DNA of 64,000 nucleotides from Ferruginibacter sp. (GTDB taxonomy: Bacteria > Bacteroidota > Bacteroidia > Chitinophagales > Chitinophagaceae), in contig JABFRP010000002.1 in assembly GCA_013141115.1 (NCBI GenBank), forward strand, positions 1,290,647 through 1,354,646, read 5' to 3'. The position numbers and the translations under genes are program-made. The notes beneath the pieces were generated by a model. That model was not told the origin of the DNA. It saw nothing but the letters and a program-made list of their open reading frames with translations, and did not search any database. Shown here piece after piece: positions 2,550-10,429 of this stretch (position 1 is its first letter; each line of letters begins with the position of its first letter).

Positions 2550-3239
2550 ATGAAAAAATTACTCATGGGAGTTGCGGTGTTGTTTATTGGTGCAACTGCC
2601 AATGCACAATTATTTTATGCACAAGGTGGCCTTAACCTTGCCAACATTACTAAAACCAATGACGGACAAACAGAAAAAAATAATATGCTGGCCAGTTTTA
2701 ATGCCGGGTTTATGGGCAGGTTTGGTTTATCCAAAACAGTTGATCTGGAAAGTGGCTTGTTACTTACCGGCCATGGCTCCAAAGCAGAAACTTATTTTAA
2801 TGGCGGCGCCGATTATGTAAAATCAACTTTTAATCCTTTGTATGTTGAGTTACCTTTAAACCTGGTAGTAACTGTACCACTGGAAAAAAGCTCGGGCATA
2901 TTTTTTAATGCAGGCCCGTACGTTGCTATAGGTATTGGCGGCAAATCAAAAACCAATTCAAAATTTGGCCCGTTAACATCCTCTTCAAGCAGCTCTATTA
3001 AATTCAGTAATGATGATCCGTTTACTTCGCAGCAGGATGATGCAGCGTATGATAAATTAAAACGTTTTGATTATGGCCTTAATTTAGGTGGCGGTTTTAA
3101 AATGGATAATTTAATATTAAAAGTAAATTATGGTTTTGGGCTGGCTAAAATAAACAGCACCGAAAGCAATAACACTGCAAATGATAAAAACAAATACCGC
3201 ACACTGAGTTTCTCGGTTGGTATTCCTTTAAGTAAATAA
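2550..3239 (+). CDS. Outer-membrane beta-barrel (PorT-like) protein
   Basis: Signal peptide MKKLLMGVAVLFIGATANAQ; alternating beta-barrel pattern and C-terminal TLSFSVGIPLSK. Confidence 0.75.
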   Translation: MKKLLMGVAVLFIGATANAQLFYAQGGLNLANITKTNDGQTEKNNMLASFNAGFMGRFGLSKTVDLESGLLLTGHGSKAETYFNGGADYVKSTFNPLYVELPLNLVVTVPLEKSSGIFFNAGPYVAIGIGGKSKTNSKFGPLTSSSSSSIKFSNDDPFTSQQDDAAYDKLKRFDYGLNLGGGFKMDNLILKVNYGFGLAKINSTESNNTANDKNKYRTLSFSVGIPLSK

Positions 3240-3266
3240 GCAAGGGGGTTTTATAGTTTTATAAAT

Positions 3267-3300
3267 AACAATGGGTCGCCTTTGGCGACCCATTGTTATT
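3267..3300 (+). terminator. Strong hairpin terminator
   Basis: AACAATGGGTCGCC-TTT-GGCGACCCATTGTT followed by ATTTTATT. Confidence 0.8.
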
Positions 3301-3444
3301 TTATTCAATTTATTTAATACAGCAATTCTTTAATCGAATCTGTTTACCCAAAATTTTTGCTTTAACACACAATATATTGTCTTTCGCCAATACCTTTGTT
3401 TTGTAATGAAATGTAGTTCTTTTAAATAGTGGCTTAATTTTTTT

Positions 3445-4473
3445 GTGAATTTTGACTATTATCCCTTCGGAATGCTGCAGCCGGGGCGTAAATACTCCGC
3501 CGGAAGTAAGTACAGGTACGGGTTTAATGGAAAGGAAAATGATAATGAAGTGAAGGGTGAAGGTGGGCAGCAGGATTACGGAATGAGAATTTATGATCCA
3601 AGGTTAGTTCGATTCCTTTCTGTTGACCCATTGACTAATAGATTTCCTTTTTATACTCCTTATCAATTTGCCGGCAATATGCCGATATGGGCAACTGATT
3701 TAGACGGAGGAGAGCCTAGTATAGCACTTCCAAGGTGGTTTACTTTTCCAGAGCCGATATTGACATTGCCAAGAATGCCGGCAATACCAGTCCAACCAAT
3801 GCCACCTCTGCCACCAGTAATTCCTCAAGGATTTTCGATGCCACAAGCACCGACATTACCTCCGGCTCCTTATATGCCTGTTCCGCCAATGTCGCCATCA
3901 TTAACAAAGTCTACGCCATTCGATGAGTCTGGAATAAATCCTAATGATGCAACTACATATCCAACGCCACCGTTTGGCGAAGGTTGGAAGGTTACCCCAA
4001 TTAAGCCTGGTACTAAAGGATACGACAAATTGGAAAAGCAAGGCATAGGAGCAACAAGGCTTGAAAATGATAAAGGGGGCATATTGAGATGGCATCAGGC
4101 GGACAAACAGCATCCTAAAGGACATTGGGATTATAAAAATCCTGACATAAACAGGCCAATGGGTAAGTGGGAGAATTATACACCTGATGGACAACAGATA
4201 CCTGATGGCTCAATTTATGGGAAAGACTTCAATCCCTCAGTTCTGATGTTTACAGATCCATTTGCATTCCCTCCAGCACAATACCCAGCGTATTTACAAA
4301 AGCAATACCAACAATCTAAAAAACAGATAGAGGAATACAATAAGAAGAAATCTGAGTATGATATACAAAAGAAGCAATACGATAAACAAATGAAAAAATA
4401 TCTTGAAAAAAAGGAAAAGTATGACCAAAAAATGCAACAATATTATAAAGAACATTCAGAAGCAATAGCATAA
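3445..4473 (+). CDS. Orphan RHS-repeat-associated core C-terminus with a polymorphic toxin-like tip and a Lys/Gln-rich coiled-coil tail
   Basis: Rhs core motif DYYPFGMLQPGRKYS...YRYGFNGKENDNE...QDYGMRIYDPRLVRFLSVDPLT...YQFAGNMPIWATDLDG, then Pro-rich linker and a variable domain (RWHQADKQHPKGHWDYKNP). No upstream YD repeats in the window. Confidence 0.8.
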   Translation: MNFDYYPFGMLQPGRKYSAGSKYRYGFNGKENDNEVKGEGGQQDYGMRIYDPRLVRFLSVDPLTNRFPFYTPYQFAGNMPIWATDLDGGEPSIALPRWFTFPEPILTLPRMPAIPVQPMPPLPPVIPQGFSMPQAPTLPPAPYMPVPPMSPSLTKSTPFDESGINPNDATTYPTPPFGEGWKVTPIKPGTKGYDKLEKQGIGATRLENDKGGILRWHQADKQHPKGHWDYKNPDINRPMGKWENYTPDGQQIPDGSIYGKDFNPSVLMFTDPFAFPPAQYPAYLQKQYQQSKKQIEEYNKKKSEYDIQKKQYDKQMKKYLEKKEKYDQKMQQYYKEHSEAIA

Positions 4474-4475
4474 TT

Positions 4476-4886
4476 ATGTTAAAAATTGATTTTACAAATG
4501 AAATGATTTTTAGTTTTGAAGGCCCTAATCTATGTTTACTTGGAAAGCCAGAAAATTTTAAATCATTGGGGAAGATTATTTTAGAGTTAACAGATACTCA
4601 AACTGAAAAAGCAATTGATATAACTGAACAAATTTTTATTGAAGTAGTAGGAAATCAATGTAAAGTTATTTTTTCATCTAAAAAAGGGGCAAATTTTTGG
4701 GGTACTCTAGAAAAAAATAATATTGTTCTCTTCGAATTAGATCATCGTATCTGGGAAAGAATTTTTCAGTTTTCTGCATTGTTAAGCTGGGATATGTTGA
4801 CATATTATTTGAACAACTATGAGTCAGGATTAGATGATTTGAATTTAAAGCAGGATTGTAACATTATTTGGAGTTCGGAATTTTAA
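4476..4886 (+). CDS. Candidate immunity protein for the upstream Rhs tip
   Basis: ATG immediately after the stop of the Rhs-tip gene, same strand, 136 aa, acidic, no signal peptide; assigned by position only. Confidence 0.55.
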   Translation: MLKIDFTNEMIFSFEGPNLCLLGKPENFKSLGKIILELTDTQTEKAIDITEQIFIEVVGNQCKVIFSSKKGANFWGTLEKNNIVLFELDHRIWERIFQFSALLSWDMLTYYLNNYESGLDDLNLKQDCNIIWSSEF

Positions 4887-4928
4887 AAAAAGTATAAAAT
4901 GTTATCCAATGGCGGGCTTAAAGCTTTT

Positions 4929-4957
4929 CGCCGCCGTCTTGTCTTCGACAAACGGCG
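4929..4957. repeat. Hairpin repeat family B, copy 1
   Basis: CGCCGCCGTCTTGTCTTCGACAAACGGCG; near-perfect stem-loop. Other copies at 8032, 8679 and (reverse) 9372. Confidence 0.85.
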
Positions 4958-4965
4958 AATTCCGA

Positions 4966-5022
4966 GCCGTTGTTGGTATCCAGCAGAGGTAAATGAGCGC
5001 AGGCGTACCAACAATAACGGGC
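4966..5022. repeat. Hairpin repeat family A, copy 1
   Basis: GCCGTTGTTGGTATCCAGCAGAGGTAAATGAGCGCAGGCGTACCAACAATAACGGGC; GTTGGTA/TACCAAC stem. Near-identical copy 308 bp downstream. Confidence 0.85.
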
Positions 5023-5200
5023 AAAACGAAAAGAGCCTCAATTAAAAACGGCCATCGTTTCAATTCCAAAACATGGATTTGTTATAAAGCGTTCCGTAAA
5101 AGCAATAGAAAATTTAATCATCAGCGTTGGTAAGCATACCAAAATCATCAATACCTGTAGCATAAAACCCTTTGCCGCCGTGGGTGCCCCATTCGCCGCC

Positions 5201-5222
5201 GCCTGGTTTTTAACCAGCGGTG
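5201..5222. repeat. Hairpin repeat family C, copy 1
   Basis: GCCTGGTTTTTAACCAGCGGTG; CTGGTT-TTT-AACCAG stem; exact reverse complement at 9314-9335. Confidence 0.75.
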
Positions 5223-5237
5223 AATACTTCCTTCTCT

Positions 5238-5330
5238 TTGCCTTCGTTGGTAGCCAAGCTTCAACCAGCACGAGCCGTTGTTGGTATGCAGCAGAGGTAA
5301 ATGAGCGTTGGCGTACCAACAACAACGGGC
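5238..5330. repeat. Extended hairpin repeat family A, copy 2 (left flank of RAYT 1)
   Basis: TTGCCTTCGTTGGTAGCCAAGCTTCAACCAGCACGAGCCGTTGTTGGTATGCAGCAGAGGTAAATGAGCGTTGGCGTACCAACAACAACGGGC; near reverse complement of 6047-6132. Confidence 0.85.
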
Positions 5331-5421
5331 AAAACGAAAAGAACCTCAATTAAAAACGGCCATTGTTTCAATTACAAAACATGGATTTGTTATAAAGGGT
5401 CCCGTAAAAGCAATAGAAAAT

Positions 5422-5943
5422 TTAATCATCAGCGTTGGTAAGCATACCAAAATCATCAATACCTGTAGCATAAAACTTTGCAGATGAATAATAGTAGTCT
5501 TCTGGTAAAGTACACAAACCTGCTTTCACAGGATTGTGATGAATATATTCAAGTTTCTGATTAAACACTTTAGAAGAACGCAATTCAATTGATAGTGAAT
5601 TACGTTCCCAAAATTGATAAGTTCTGTCTTTTGCTGCTACTTTAAATTGTTCCAGCAGACCAGCATTATTTTTTTGTAAATCAATTTTAAATTCTTGAGC
5701 CGTATACTTTAGTAAACTGTGTTGTATGGTTTGTAATGTTTGCCTTGGTAGTGGCTGCCAGATGAGATGCATGTGATTACTCATTATTACAAATGCGTAC
5801 AGCTTTATTCTTTTTTGTTTTACTAAAAACCGCAGGCTTTTAATAATTTCATCTTTATAGTTGTCTTGATGTAATAATGGTTTCCATTCTAAAATGGTGG
5901 CGGTAAAAAATTGTGGCCAGTATTCCGGATAAATTTGTTTCAT
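5422..5943 (-). CDS. REP-associated tyrosine transposase (RAYT, Y1/IS200-like), copy 1
   Basis: HUH motif NHMHLIWQP, catalytic-Tyr region LEYIHHNPVKAGL, C-terminal EDYYYSSAKFY; flanked by inverted hairpin repeats. Confidence 0.9.
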   Translation of the reverse strand: MKQIYPEYWPQFFTATILEWKPLLHQDNYKDEIIKSLRFLVKQKRIKLYAFVIMSNHMHLIWQPLPRQTLQTIQHSLLKYTAQEFKIDLQKNNAGLLEQFKVAAKDRTYQFWERNSLSIELRSSKVFNQKLEYIHHNPVKAGLCTLPEDYYYSSAKFYATGIDDFGMLTNADD

Positions 5944-5995
5944 AGTGCCAACAAATTTATTAATTTGAATTAAAATAACAGTAGCAAATATCTAT

Positions 5996-6448
5996 TTGAT
6001 GTACGTGCCGTTTAGTATTCGGGTTATGGCAGCGTTAGTTGCGCAATGTTGTTGGTACGCCTGCCCTCATTTACCTCTGCTGCATACCAACAACGGCTTG
6101 TGCTGGTTGAAGCTTGGCTACCAACGAAGGCAAAAGGAAAAGATATGGAATAATATTTTTGATAAGTTTATTGAAAAAATCTTTTTTGATTTTACTATTT
6201 TTGAAACAACTCATCAGGTATATTGGAAAGATACAAGCAAGATTTTATGCGAATTTAATTTTATAATTGAAGGCTCTTCAAACGAGGGGTTACTGAAATC
6301 TCATCTGCTTTTATTGTCAAGAATTTCTAATAATTGGGATATTACTTTTGGTAGTCAACCTCTACCAGATGTAATTATAGATAGTTCAGTCTGTCAAAAT
6401 TCTAAAATTATTGGTATTGATTGGATTAATATCGAAACATCCACATAA
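5996..6448 (+). pseudogene. Repeat-derived N-terminus fused to a possible orphan immunity-like domain
   Basis: First ~45 codons lie in repeat A copy 3; the rest (KIWNNIFDKFIEKIFFDFTIFETTHQ...IIGIDWINIETST) is AT-rich, single-domain sequence ending at another repeat-A remnant (6457-6505). Confidence 0.4.
6047..6132. repeat. Extended hairpin repeat family A, copy 3, inverted (right flank of RAYT 1)
   Basis: TGTTGTTGGTACGCCTGCCCTCATTTACCTCTGCTGCATACCAACAACGGCTTGTGCTGGTTGAAGCTTGGCTACCAACGAAGGCAA. Confidence 0.85.
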
Positions 6449-6456
6449 TCTCCTTT

Positions 6457-6505
6457 TTGCCCTCGTTGGTAGCCCAGCTCCAACTAGCACGAGCCGTTTC
6501 GCCTT
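6457..6505. repeat. Degenerate partial copy of extended repeat A
   Basis: TTGCCCTCGTTGGTAGCCCAGCTCCAACTAGCACGAGCCGTTTCGCC resembles 5238-5280. Confidence 0.6.
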
Positions 6506-6638
6506 TGTTGCCCTGCTAAGGGATGCCAATGCAAGAAAGGCATATGCTAAATAAAAAAACCACCAGCCTTTATAACTGATGGTTTAAACATGACTTTAAT
6601 TACTGTCTGGCGCAAGAAACCTACGCCTGCTGGACATT

Positions 6639-7139
6639 TTACTCATAAAATTCTTTAACATACTCAATAAATTCAGAGTAAACTTGTTTAAAATAATCGA
6701 ATTCAATGTCAAATGAATAAAATTTAGGTTTATGCTTGCCATCCATCTTATAGATCAAGAAAATAACACTATTTTTTTGATCTTTATAACAAAGTACTGT
6801 TAGCGAATTCCCTAGTTTATCATCGCTGAAAGCAAACCTATTCATCCTTTCAACCAAAATATTTTGCTCTTCTAATGAATAATTATCATCAATACAATCT
6901 AAAATGTTATCAAATATCTCTCTATGGGTCATAGAAATAAATTTCTTTTCATACAGACTATCAATTCTACCCAATAATTCTATATAGCTTTTAACATTAG
7001 TTGCTAAATCACCGCTTTTTTTGAAATCTCCAATTGAAGTATTACAAAAAAAATATCTAAAATAAAATTTCTTGACTTTTTCTGCCTCTTTAATACAAAT
7101 AGCAAATCGGCTTTTATCTCCAAATAATTTTTCTTTCAT
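6639..7139 (-). CDS. Candidate immunity protein (166 aa, hypothetical)
   Basis: Directly downstream (18 bp) of the truncated toxin-tip-like ORF 7158-7550, same strand, no signal peptide; assigned by position. Confidence 0.45.
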   Translation of the reverse strand: MKEKLFGDKSRFAICIKEAEKVKKFYFRYFFCNTSIGDFKKSGDLATNVKSYIELLGRIDSLYEKKFISMTHREIFDNILDCIDDNYSLEEQNILVERMNRFAFSDDKLGNSLTVLCYKDQKNSVIFLIYKMDGKHKPKFYSFDIEFDYFKQVYSEFIEYVKEFYE

Positions 7140-7157
7140 AAAATATTTTATTAAACC

Positions 7158-7550
7158 TTAAGGGGTTGGATTATTGGATGGGTTATTAGCCCCAGCCTTG
7201 TTTTCTTTAAATAACAGGGTATTAGGATTTGATGCTTTATCCCAGCCTGGCCTAATTGCATTAAGCCACGCAATACCTGCATTTATTTTAGTAATACTTT
7301 TATGTGTAAATCTCAGATTTGCTACCCTAGTAGATTTTGCAACATCAGCGTCGACTAAATTCGTAAGGTGAGTCTTGTAATTTAGTCCATATGTATTGAG
7401 TGCTATAACTGCAGTTTCGGCACCTTGAACAACTTGTAAGTCGTTTTTTCCTATAACACCTAAGTTTAACCCTTGTATTGAATAAGGGCTATATCTTCCC
7501 CCAATAGGTATGTCAATTTCCGCCGCCGTGGGTAACATCGCTTCTACCAT
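7158..7550 (-). CDS. Detached toxin-tip-like fragment (C-terminal domain) beginning at a repeat
   Basis: MVEAMLPTAAEIDIPIGGRYSPYSIQGLNLGVIGKNDLQVVQGAETAVIALNTYG...PGWDKASNPNTLLFKENK; no signal peptide; its 5' end lies in the repeat CGCCGCCGTGGGTAACATCGC shared with 8168. Confidence 0.45.
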   Translation of the reverse strand: MVEAMLPTAAEIDIPIGGRYSPYSIQGLNLGVIGKNDLQVVQGAETAVIALNTYGLNYKTHLTNLVDADVAKSTRVANLRFTHKSITKINAGIAWLNAIRPGWDKASNPNTLLFKENKAGANNPSNNPTP

Positions 7551-7580
7551 TCGCTTCTACAAATTTGAATGTTTCTGTAT

Positions 7581-7880
7581 TTAGCTTAACCAAGTTTTTT
7601 TAAATTCAGAATAAATTTTGACATACTCTTTGATATCTTTTCTTGTTCCTGTTAAATAGATATTTCCGTCATATTTATCAATTAATATTGGAGCATTTCC
7701 TCCAATCATATTTTGAGTATCTCCCGTTTTTACAAATTCCTCAGACTGATAAAAGAATACCCACCCATAATCAAAACTTAAAGTATCATTTTCAAAAAAA
7801 GCTAATCTGATTTTTGCTTCGTTCTCAATTTCTTTCAGCTTTGATAAAGCTATAACTTTTGCTTGCTCAAAATTTAGCAT
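7581..7880 (-). CDS. Imm35/YrhB-like immunity protein, copy 1
   Basis: MLNFEQAKVIALSKLKEIENEAKIRLAFFENDTLSFDYGWVFFYQSEEFVKTGDTQNMIGGNAPILIDKYDGNIYLTGTRKDIKEYVKIYSEFKK; matches the recalled Imm35 pattern (GW-FFYQS...APILID...GTR). Confidence 0.7.
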   Translation of the reverse strand: MLNFEQAKVIALSKLKEIENEAKIRLAFFENDTLSFDYGWVFFYQSEEFVKTGDTQNMIGGNAPILIDKYDGNIYLTGTRKDIKEYVKIYSEFKKTWLS

Positions 7881-7884
7881 GTCA

Positions 7885-8076
7885 TTATTTTAATGTTCCT
7901 TTCAAGAACCATAATTGATAGTATTGGTTTACTTCCGATGCCTGCATTACCGCAGAGCCTGATTTTTGAAAATCTAAAAACTGTATTGCTCCTCCCTTCC
8001 CACGCCGCCTTAGATGAACCGCTTCGATCTTCGCCGCCGTCTTGTCTTCGACAAACAGCGTTTGGTAATGCCACAA
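7885..8076 (-). pseudogene. Short toxin-tip remnant upstream of Imm35 copy 1
   Basis: MWHYQTLFVEDKTAAKIEAVHLRRRGKGGAIQFLDFQKSGSAVMQASEVNQYYQLWFLKGTLK; N-terminal part encoded by repeat B; ends just before the Imm35 start. Confidence 0.4.
8032..8060. repeat. Hairpin repeat family B, copy 2
   Basis: CGCCGCCGTCTTGTCTTCGACAAACAGCG. Confidence 0.85.
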
Positions 8077-8227
8077 ATTTTAATTGCCTGAATAATGTGT
8101 TAATATCCCAAAATCATCAACAGTATTAAAATAAAATTTTGCAGAGGAATAATAGTAGTCTTCCTTCCGCCGCCGTGGGTAACATCGCATCTACCATTCG
8201 CTTCTACAAATTTGAATGTTTCTGTAT

Positions 8228-8527
8228 TTAGCTTAACCAAGTTTTTTTAAATTCAGAATAAATTTTGACATACTCTTTGATATCTTTTCTTGTTCCTGTT
8301 AAATAGATATTTCCGTCATATTTATCAATTAATATTGGAGCATTTCCTCCAATCATATTTTGAGTATCTCCCTTTTTTACAAATTCCTCAGACTGATAAA
8401 AGAATACCCACCCATAATCAAAACTTAAAGTATCATTTTCAAAAAAAGCTAATCTGATTTTTGCTTCGTTCTCAATTTCTTTCAGCTTTGATAAAGCTAT
8501 AACTTTTGCTTGCTCAAAATTTAGCAT
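8228..8527 (-). CDS. Imm35/YrhB-like immunity protein, copy 2
   Basis: Identical to 7581-7880 translation except T52K (base 7726 G versus 8373 T). Confidence 0.7.
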   Translation of the reverse strand: MLNFEQAKVIALSKLKEIENEAKIRLAFFENDTLSFDYGWVFFYQSEEFVKKGDTQNMIGGNAPILIDKYDGNIYLTGTRKDIKEYVKIYSEFKKTWLS

Positions 8528-8531
8528 GTCA

Positions 8532-8723
8532 TTATTTTAATGTTCCTTTCAAGAACCATAATTGATAGCATTGATTTACTTCCGACGCCTGCATTACCGC
8601 AGAGCCTGATTTTTGAAAATCTAAAAACTGTATTGCTCCTCCCTTCCCACGCCGCCTTAGATGAACCGCTTCGATCTTCGCCGCCGTCTTGTCTTCGACA
8701 AACGGCGTTTGGTAATGCCACAA
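8532..8723 (-). pseudogene. Short toxin-tip remnant upstream of Imm35 copy 2
   Basis: Near-identical to 7885-8076 translation (YQTPFVEDKTAAKIEAVHLRRRGKGGAIQFLDFQKSGS...). Confidence 0.4.
8679..8707. repeat. Hairpin repeat family B, copy 3 (left flank of RAYT 2)
   Basis: CGCCGCCGTCTTGTCTTCGACAAACGGCG. Confidence 0.85.
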
Positions 8724-8726
8724 ATT

Positions 8727-9251
8727 TTAATTGCCTGAATAATGTGTTAATATCCCAAAATCATCAACAGTATTAAAATAAAATTTTGCAGAGGAGTAAT
8801 AGTAATCTTCCGGATTAGCACATAACCCGGCTTTAACAGGATTGTAATGAATATATTCAAGCTTTTGCATAAACACCGCATGGGTTCGCAATTCAATGCT
8901 TAATGATTCCCGTTTCCATATTTGATATAAGCGATCATATTTATTTACTTTATAGGTTTCCAATGCTACAATATCATCTTTAGTAAGGCTGCCTTTTAAT
9001 TGCTTAGCAGTGTGTTTCATAAAAGAAGCTTGGACATCCGAAGGGGTAAATGCAAATGCAGGTTGCCATATCAGGTGAATATGGTTATTCATAATAACAA
9101 ATGCATTTAAAATAACTCTTTTTTCAGATACTAAAAATTTAAGGCTATCAATAATTATGTTTTTATGTTTATCATCTAAAAGCAAATGTTTCCAATCAAG
9201 TATTGTTGCGGTAAAAAATTGCGGGTAATGTATGGGGTATTCCGGATTCAT
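8727..9251 (-). CDS. REP-associated tyrosine transposase (RAYT, Y1/IS200-like), copy 2
   Basis: HUH motif NHIHLIWQP; LEYIHYNPVKAGL; EDYYYSSAKFYFNTVDDFGIL; clearly related to but divergent from RAYT 1. Confidence 0.9.
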   Translation of the reverse strand: MNPEYPIHYPQFFTATILDWKHLLLDDKHKNIIIDSLKFLVSEKRVILNAFVIMNNHIHLIWQPAFAFTPSDVQASFMKHTAKQLKGSLTKDDIVALETYKVNKYDRLYQIWKRESLSIELRTHAVFMQKLEYIHYNPVKAGLCANPEDYYYSSAKFYFNTVDDFGILTHYSGN

Positions 9252-9313
9252 GCCACTAATTTATAAAAAAGTAATGATTTTATTGTGTTACAATCTTAGC
9301 TTACCGAACCATA

Positions 9314-9335
9314 CACCGCTGGTTAAAAACCAGGC
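9314..9335. repeat. Hairpin repeat family C, copy 2 (inverted)
   Basis: CACCGCTGGTTAAAAACCAGGC; reverse complement of 5201-5222. Confidence 0.75.
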
Positions 9336-9371
9336 TGCCAACGAAGGTGAAAAATATGAGTTTGTGGAGTA

Positions 9372-9400
9372 CGCCGTTTGTCGAAGACAAGACGGCGGCG
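9372..9400. repeat. Hairpin repeat family B, copy 4, inverted (right flank of RAYT 2)
   Basis: CGCCGTTTGTCGAAGACAAGACGGCGGCG; reverse complement of copy 3. Confidence 0.85.
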
Positions 9401-9427
9401 GAAGAGCTGTTTAAAAGTGAGCCTACA

Positions 9428-10381
9428 TTACACCAATTGTTTCACCACATCGGCAATAATTTGCGGCCTGCCCAATGTATAATAATGCAATACCGGCACG
9501 CCAAACTTTTTTAATTCTCTCGATTGATGCAACAACCATTCTGCGCCTACTTTTTCTACGTCTTCATCTGTTTTACATTTAGCTACCTCGTTACTTAATG
9601 CCGCAGGCAAATCAATATGAAATACTTTGGGCAACATGGTTAATTGCTTTTTGGTATAGATGGGTTTTAAGCCCGGTATAATGGGCACATTAATACCCAT
9701 ATCCCTGCAGGCTTTTACAAAAGCATAGTATTTTTCGTTATCGTAAAACATTTGGGTCACAATATAATCGGCCCCAAGGTCTACTTTCATTTTTAAATAC
9801 TTCAGGTCGCTATCCATATTGGGTGCTTCAAAATGTTTTTCGGGGTAACCGGCCACGCCAATACAAAATTTTGTGTTGGAAGAGTTTTTTAAATCTTCTT
9901 CCAGGTAAACCCCTGCATTTAAATTTACCACCTGTTGTAAAAGGTCGCTGGCATATTTATGCCCGGCCGGGTCGGGTTCAAAAGCACTTTCATTTTTAGC
10001 CGCATCGCCACGTAATACCAGTACATTATCAATACCCAGGTAATGCAAATTAATTAAGGCATCTTCGGTTTCATTAATATTAAAGCCGCCGCAAATTAAG
10101 TGCGGCACGGTATCTACACTGTATTTATTCATTATAGCCGCACAAATGCTTTCGGTACCGGGTCGTTTACGCACTACTACTTTTGCAAAACTACCATCAG
10201 CATTTTTCTTAAACACATGTTCGCTGCGGTGGTAAGTAACGTTTATAAAAGAAGGTTTAAACTCCATCAATGGGTCTAAATGTTTATATAAAGATTGAAT
10301 GCCTTTACCTTTTAATGGTGGAAGAATCTCAAAAGAAACCAAGGTGTCTTTTGCCTGGTTGATATGGTCTATTACTTTCAT
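9428..10381 (-). CDS. metF: Methylenetetrahydrofolate reductase
   Basis: MKVIDHINQAKDTLVSFEILPPLKGKG...VTYHRSEHVFK...VDTVPHLICGGF...VLRGD...GVAGYPEKHFEAPN...DYIVTQMFYDNEKY...PGLKPI. Start moved from 10426 to the internal ATG at 10381, downstream of a promoter-like motif. Confidence 0.93.
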   Translation of the reverse strand: MKVIDHINQAKDTLVSFEILPPLKGKGIQSLYKHLDPLMEFKPSFINVTYHRSEHVFKKNADGSFAKVVVRKRPGTESICAAIMNKYSVDTVPHLICGGFNINETEDALINLHYLGIDNVLVLRGDAAKNESAFEPDPAGHKYASDLLQQVVNLNAGVYLEEDLKNSSNTKFCIGVAGYPEKHFEAPNMDSDLKYLKMKVDLGADYIVTQMFYDNEKYYAFVKACRDMGINVPIIPGLKPIYTKKQLTMLPKVFHIDLPAALSNEVAKCKTDEDVEKVGAEWLLHQSRELKKFGVPVLHYYTLGRPQIIADVVKQLV

Positions 10382-10398
10382 TATTATTAAATATTTTG

Positions 10399-10429
10399 CA
10401 AACATAGTTAAGTAAGCATAAAGCACAAA
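10399..10429 (-). promoter_or_regulatory. Putative Bacteroidota-type promoter for metF
   Basis: On the minus strand TTTG-N19-TATGTTTG, matching the known TTTG/TAnnTTTG consensus, just upstream of the preferred start at 10381. Confidence 0.5.

Follow-up and report, generated by a model that had tools for sequence, protein, structure and literature searches.

The window analysed here is a stretch of 64,000 nucleotides from the 5.44-Mb genome of a Ferruginibacter sp. (C1:1290647-1354646), and it contains an island made up of Rhs toxin tips, immunity genes, REP-associated tyrosine transposases (RAYTs) and repetitive extragenic palindrome (REP) hairpins. The island is probably an accretion of orphan Rhs tip/immunity cassettes, set down off-site at a hotspot for Rhs genes and mobile elements, joined there by two REPtrons and pruned at REP ends; the RAYTs would be passengers and sources of breakpoints, rather than the machinery by which tips are swapped. 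The cassettes may arrive by horizontal transfer or by homologous exchange, for which the conserved Rhs core would be the site. Rhs 3' regions and displaced cassettes would tolerate insertion, and so would collect varied mobile elements, RAYTs included. REP insertion, REP-ended deletion and short tandem duplication would then strip away parts of the toxins, with selection retaining the immunity genes. The original prediction, made by reading the window, had proposed that RAYT-mobilized hairpins serve as the joints at which such cassettes are assembled and shuffled. The coordinates of all features are collected in Table 1.

The island is an insertion specific to its own lineage. It lies between a gene for an outer membrane protein (2550-3239) and one for MTHFR (9428-10426, minus strand). 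The locus was compared among relatives, as had been envisaged from the outset: the same two genes are separated by an empty site of 69 bp in one genus-mate (G078, L156) and of 62 bp in another (G068, L159), and G082, the MTHFR of which is 96% identical, has neither the outer-membrane-protein gene nor the island at its MTHFR locus. It is a 6.2-kb segment that these three genomes lack. No second genome with the whole block at another place was found among 399 genomes of the family. The only other Rhs core match of the own genome, a full-length one, lies ~34 kb away. No REP occurs between 3240 and 4926, i.e. the left edge of the island is without one; a duplicated MTHFR end at this border (~3318-3345) was considered and dropped, the signal being too weak. 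Rfam gave no match.

The modules of the island are Rhs tip/immunity cassettes, in which neutralization of each toxin by its partner is predicted. In ORF (open reading frame) 3445, residues 5-88 match the Rhs core model TIGR03696 (43.4 bits; cut-off 32.5) in frame with a tip, tip3445, that is 63-65% identical to Rhs tips of genomes G216 and G105. These belong to two other genera, and in both of them the order of tip3445 and its candidate immunity gene, imm4476, is kept 3' of an Rhs core; G216 has two copies of the imm4476 homologue. The pair on the opposite strand, tip7158 and imm6639, has its counterpart in a third genus (G257), where tip7158 is matched at 53-54% identity by the C-terminal end of an Rhs protein of 3039 aa and the next gene is a homologue of imm6639. 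Both pairs are identified in this way, because their relatives occur as pairs in Rhs loci, the profiles being silent: tip3445, imm4476, tip7158 and imm6639 have no family in Pfam, NCBIfam or the PDB, and small profiles built for tip3445 and imm4476 were of no help in assigning one. The orphan immunity-like gene orf5996 has a 36% identical homologue in G301, within an array of immunity genes that follows an Rhs gene of 1658 aa on its 3' side; compared with this homologue, orf5996 appears to be ~25 N-terminal residues shorter. The two pairs and the orphan gene had all been proposed from the window, and the possibility that these ORFs might prove unrelated to toxins and immunity proteins is answered by the homologues that they have at Rhs loci in other genera. 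None of the foreign stretches with cassette homologues (G216, G105, G257 and G301) has a RAYT.

The two Imm35 genes were also recognized early, together with the short tip remnants that precede them, and both parts of that proposal stand: the genes match PF15567, and the stump upstream of each corresponds to the last ~37 aa of a toxin with a papain fold. Full-length tips adjoining Imm35 homologues match PF15644, and a papain-type toxin is the reported partner of Imm35 (the Imm35-Tox-PL1 pairing; Zhang 2012, PMC3482391), of which the stump alone remains here. The copies do not represent two acquisitions. They are the outcome of a single tandem duplication, the units of which (7518-8164 and 8165-8811) differ by eight mismatches in 647 bp and meet in a microhomology of 4-5 bp (TTCC/TTCCG), with no hairpin exchange. 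The island retains one intact tip/immunity pair (3445/4476); two further toxin genes have lost their front parts, with their immunity genes whole.

Both of the proposed Y1 transposase genes score above the cut-off of the RAYT model NF047646. RAYT1 resembles E. coli TnpA-REP 4er8 (phmmer, E 0.003), and the nearest relatives of the RAYTs are found in Ferruginibacter and in other Chitinophagales or Bacteroidetes. The catalytic residues are present (NHMH and YIHHNP in RAYT1; NHIH and YIHYNP in RAYT2), and the variable letters differ from the published NH[LIV]H and YIH[QN]NP (PMC6006769, Table 1). RAYT1 is flanked by inverted arms of 101 bp that are 91% complementary, and a hairpin at 5192 has a DNA-fold z of -3.7. 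The two RAYTs sit in REPtron-like units, and cleavage and joining of REPs by them is predicted. The hairpins were counted genome-wide by pattern search, with up to three mismatches allowed for hairpin C. Hairpin C occurs at seven places in the 5.44 Mb, four of them in the island, and hairpin B at four, three of them in the island; the 11 places together comprise seven in the island, two in a second island at C1:373 kb and two at ordinary intergenic sites (L018, L019), which is not the uniform scatter that would have spoken against an association.

Besides its two REP places, the second island contains a pair of RAYTs, of which one is broken, together with an orphan immunity-like gene of 176 aa and a shard of an Rhs core. 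The RAYT1 unit of ~920 bp recurs there with its hairpins (L017:8569-9509, 86.5% identical). Common to both islands are the RAYT unit, the REPs and a short core match only; the cassettes are not shared. In G021, an Ntox21 tip is immediately followed by a homologue of the 176-aa gene. An empty site for this island was not found, the adjoining gene having no clear orthologue in genus-mates. There are five fragments in the two islands that end no more than ~16 bp from the same end of the same REP (Table 1), and the REP-end motif GCCGCCGTRGGT has four exact occurrences in 239 kb of own DNA, each beside a cut fragment; the papain stump has a diverged form of the motif at its cut, and the junction motif beside the truncated RAYT1 copy lies at 5174. 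This coincidence of positions suggests that REPs caused the cuts, and the hairpins may help to prune toxins while the immunity genes are left intact, although this is unproven. The hairpins originally placed at the module boundaries do mark cut points in two islands, but not the left edge of the one in the window. Elsewhere, a second REP family (core CCGGACTGTGTCCGG) is seen near the C1:373-kb island (L017:7160-7275) and around a RAYT at C4:214 kb (L020:8860-9990), and homologues of the orphan Ntox21-type immunity gene of that island occur singly, in ordinary gene surroundings, at L208:7793-8305 and L209:8348-8878, with no Rhs core or RAYT within the stretches read.

There is evidence from the family as a whole that RAYTs and Rhs genes are associated. 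The survey covered 61 genomes, with 150 RAYTs and 151 Rhs cores among the matches listed, to which the counts that follow also refer; expectations were calculated from rounded genome sizes. At eight loci a RAYT and an Rhs core are no more than 5 kb apart, against 0.62 expected (~13-fold, P ~3e-7); the figures are seven against 0.60 if the own genome is left out. All eight have the RAYT on the 3' side of the core, a bias that is to be expected because the 5' side is mostly the long Rhs gene itself, and in six of the eight it is 1.8-2.0 kb away; three RAYT subgroups are represented. RAYTs are not alone in showing such an excess, since in the same genomes and within the same distance rve transposases were found at three loci (0.18 expected) and DDE_Tnp_1 also at three (0.33 expected). 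RAYTs lie nearer to the cores than does DDE_Tnp_1, which has no locus within 3 kb. The densities of Rhs and RAYT genes are uncorrelated (rho 0.11), and some of the largest Rhs arrays (~20 cores) are in genomes with no RAYT or one, as in G016 with 21 Rhs and no RAYT. Within the subgroup of RAYT1 and RAYT2, an Rhs core is present at four of 80 loci (~1 expected at average density), and the near neighbours of these 80 RAYTs are mostly ordinary, as judged by a Pfam tally of the 25 commonest of 101 families. No paper naming both 'RAYT' and 'Rhs' was found in the literature searched.

Other arrangements were also seen. The contigs L047 and L049, 4.4 and 4.7 kb in full, consist of core-tip-immunity, RAYT and immunity-tip-core, convergent as in the window, and in L036 and L041 a RAYT lies between tandem cassettes. 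Both of the convergent contigs terminate within Rhs cores; inversion between cores could swap tips, but the two cores of each contig are non-identical. In G035, of the same genus, three RAYT units of 0.66-0.80 kb are 97-99% identical in different surroundings (L039:2155-2949, L040:8474-9128 and L043:7740-8533), which argues that the unit was recently copied as a block and that RAYT units can be so copied. Two of them are behind Rhs tip/immunity pairs and the third is beside an orphan deaminase-like tip (HAE...PCADC, recognized by reading; no Pfam match). This tip is joined to REPs of another family, and no Rhs core was seen in its vicinity. In G060 (L042:1-1148) there is direct overlap between a RAYT gene and the end of an Rhs tip ORF that is shortened, as if the RAYT cut the tip. 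The order in G021 is REP cluster, RAYT, tip stump, immunity gene, orphan Rhs core, Ntox21 tip and immunity gene, with the RAYT ~1 kb upstream of the core; upstream of the RAYT in this orphan island, hairpin repeats of two families are densely arrayed (L210:7300-8270). At L045:5993-7750, without Rhs, a B-type REP cluster adjoins both a 369-aa SIR2-like gene and a RAYT that shares 80% identity with RAYT1.

Spelled out as a mechanism, the original proposal would have a RAYT cleave and rejoin REP ends, and in this way move or join REP-bounded cassettes and diversify Rhs tips. The proposal draws on the cuts in toxin, core and RAYT fragments, which in both islands match the position of one REP end, on the company of RAYT, REPs, Ntox21-type immunity gene and core shard in the second island, on the independent case of G021, on the REP-fused tip of L043 and on the RAYTs between convergent cassettes in L047 and L049. 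It is, however, rather unlikely, as the RAYT-poor arrays, the cassettes that occur without a RAYT, the island edge that lacks a REP, the comparable enrichment of other transposases and the microhomology joint of the Imm35 duplication all speak against it, and TnpA-REP has been described as acting on REPs and not on cargo genes (PMC6006769). Because cassettes and arrays form without RAYTs, and other transposases gather at Rhs 3' regions, it is not the best supported mechanism. The part that survives is the link between RAYTs and Rhs genes across the family, with REPs at the cuts; that the hairpins assemble or shuffle tips is unsupported. RAYT-driven tip diversification is possible. A more elaborate scheme, in which RAYT-recognized REP ends are cut-and-join points that detach cassettes from Rhs genes, relocate them and trim their toxins, giving transposase-assisted orphan immunity arrays in Bacteroidota, must be judged unlikely.

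Alternatively, RAYT elements might preferentially target Rhs loci, through hairpins exposed on the lagging strand or through tip/immunity 3' sequence, for example, with no role in cassette exchange. The spacing from the core, the three subgroups involved and the G035 family would fit, but so few of the 80 RAYT1/2-subgroup loci have an Rhs core, REPs are also at ordinary intergenic sites, and the uniform distance is explained by typical lengths of a tip and an immunity gene, so that we regard such targeting as quite improbable. That the whole island moves as one composite transposon or other mobile element is more improbable still: clean presence and absence between convergent genes, and RAYT2 with REPs at the right edge, are what such an element would give, yet the left edge has no matching REP or repeat, the cassettes are in both orientations, and the second island shares the RAYT unit, REPs and short core match without the cassettes. 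Accretion at a hotspot, with the RAYTs as passengers, has points against it as well. The relatives compared are species representatives only, and the control counts are small, at three loci each with one locus common to both. The RAYT link is tight, the RAYT typically lying right behind the immunity gene, and in G035 all three complete copies of one RAYT family are at toxin cassettes; given this spacing and these copies, 'general hotspot' may understate the link.

Table 1. Features of the island in the window (positions are those of the window unless a locus is named).
Feature	Position	Strand	Remarks
Whole island	3240-9427	none	Lineage-specific insertion; outer-membrane-protein gene and MTHFR gene (convergent) on either side
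Orphan Rhs core (from YYPFG motif) and complete toxin tip	3445-4473	+	TIGR03696 43.4 bits; tip homologues
Candidate cognate immunity gene of tip3445 (imm4476)	4476-4886	+	44-60% identical genes directly 3' of homologous tip in G216/G105
REP hairpin C	4926-4958	none	DNA fold -10.4 kcal/mol, z -3.2
Truncated RAYT1 3'-end copy with REP B	4963-5168	none	96% identical to 5271-5476; stops 5 bp short of GCCGCCGTGGGT
Left ~101-bp REP arm (A+B) of RAYT1 unit	5232-5332	none	91% complementary to 6039-6139; fold z -2.1
RAYT1	5422-5943	-	NF047646 91.1 bits (cut-off 80); catalytic residues of HUH and YIHxNP motifs present
Right ~101-bp REP arm of RAYT1 unit	6039-6139	none	Fold z -1.7
Orphan immunity-like gene orf5996	6150-6448	+	5' end cut at RAYT1 REP arm; G301 homologue
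Solo REP, family A	6450-6498	none	88% identical to 5231-5279; fold z only -1.5
Immunity gene of tip7158, by homology (imm6639)	6639-7139	-	42% identical to gene directly 3' of homologous G257 tip
Truncated Rhs tip (tip7158)	7158-7550	-	Homology stops at IGGRY (~7505); REP-end motif at 7522
647-bp tandem duplication	7518-8811	none	REP end, Imm35, toxin stump, REP C, RAYT2 3' end
Imm35 copy 1	7581-7880	-	PF15567 43.7 bits (cut-off 27.5)
C-terminal stump of papain-fold (PF15644-type) toxin tip	7885-8001	-	Cut at REP; assigned by comparison to complete tips that adjoin Imm35 homologues
REP hairpin C, one mismatch, weakened fold	8030-8061	none	Degraded copy, z only -1.0
Imm35 copy 2	8228-8527	-	PF15567 41.1 bits (cut-off 27.5)
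REP hairpin C, 3' side of RAYT2	8677-8708	none	Exact copy
RAYT2	8727-9251	-	NF047646 88.3 bits (cut-off 80); 59% identical to RAYT1 (alignment)
REP pair 5' of RAYT2, right edge of island	9306-9403	none	Fold z -2.9; inverted copies of 5198-5230 and 8679-8708
Cut fragments (ends)	5168; ~7505; 8164; ~8001 (duplicate ~8648); ~L017:10166		RAYT1 remnant; tip7158; RAYT2 remnant; papain stump; Rhs core shard

The island has its closest parallels in three kinds of known system. With its partial core, tip and immunity gene, its immunity genes that outlast their toxins and its heterogeneous array, it is like the orphan Rhs-CT or effector-immunity modules and immunity arrays described previously (Kirchberger 2017, PMC5361080; Zhang 2012, PMC3482391); it differs from the canonical modules in that it is not directly 3' of an intact rhs gene and has REPs at its cuts. 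The RAYT units, with an HUH-Y1 gene, inverted REP arms and the invariant letters of the NHxH, WQ and YIHxNP motifs, are like the REPtrons of TnpA-REP (RAYT) subclass 2.6 of Bacteroidetes (Quentin 2018, PMC6006769; Nunvar 2010, PMC2817692), as are the REP copies elsewhere in the genome (L017, L018, L019), although the REPs here are very few (11 matches) and clustered, unlike those of described REPtrons. The CDI-carrying (contact-dependent inhibition) transposon of Burkholderia thailandensis (PMC6350997) likewise brings polymorphic toxin genes together with mobile-element functions; that locus is mobile as one element, whereas the cassettes of the island have no enclosing element boundary.

The escape of cassettes from their home locus, and the occurrence of solitary immunity genes, are usually ascribed to homologous or illegitimate recombination with no agent named. 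The coincidence of REP ends with toxin cuts, together with the excess of transposases at Rhs cores, provides a concrete and countable hypothesis. Even if the RAYTs are mere passengers, Rhs 3' regions are suggested to be general hotspots for mobile elements in this family.

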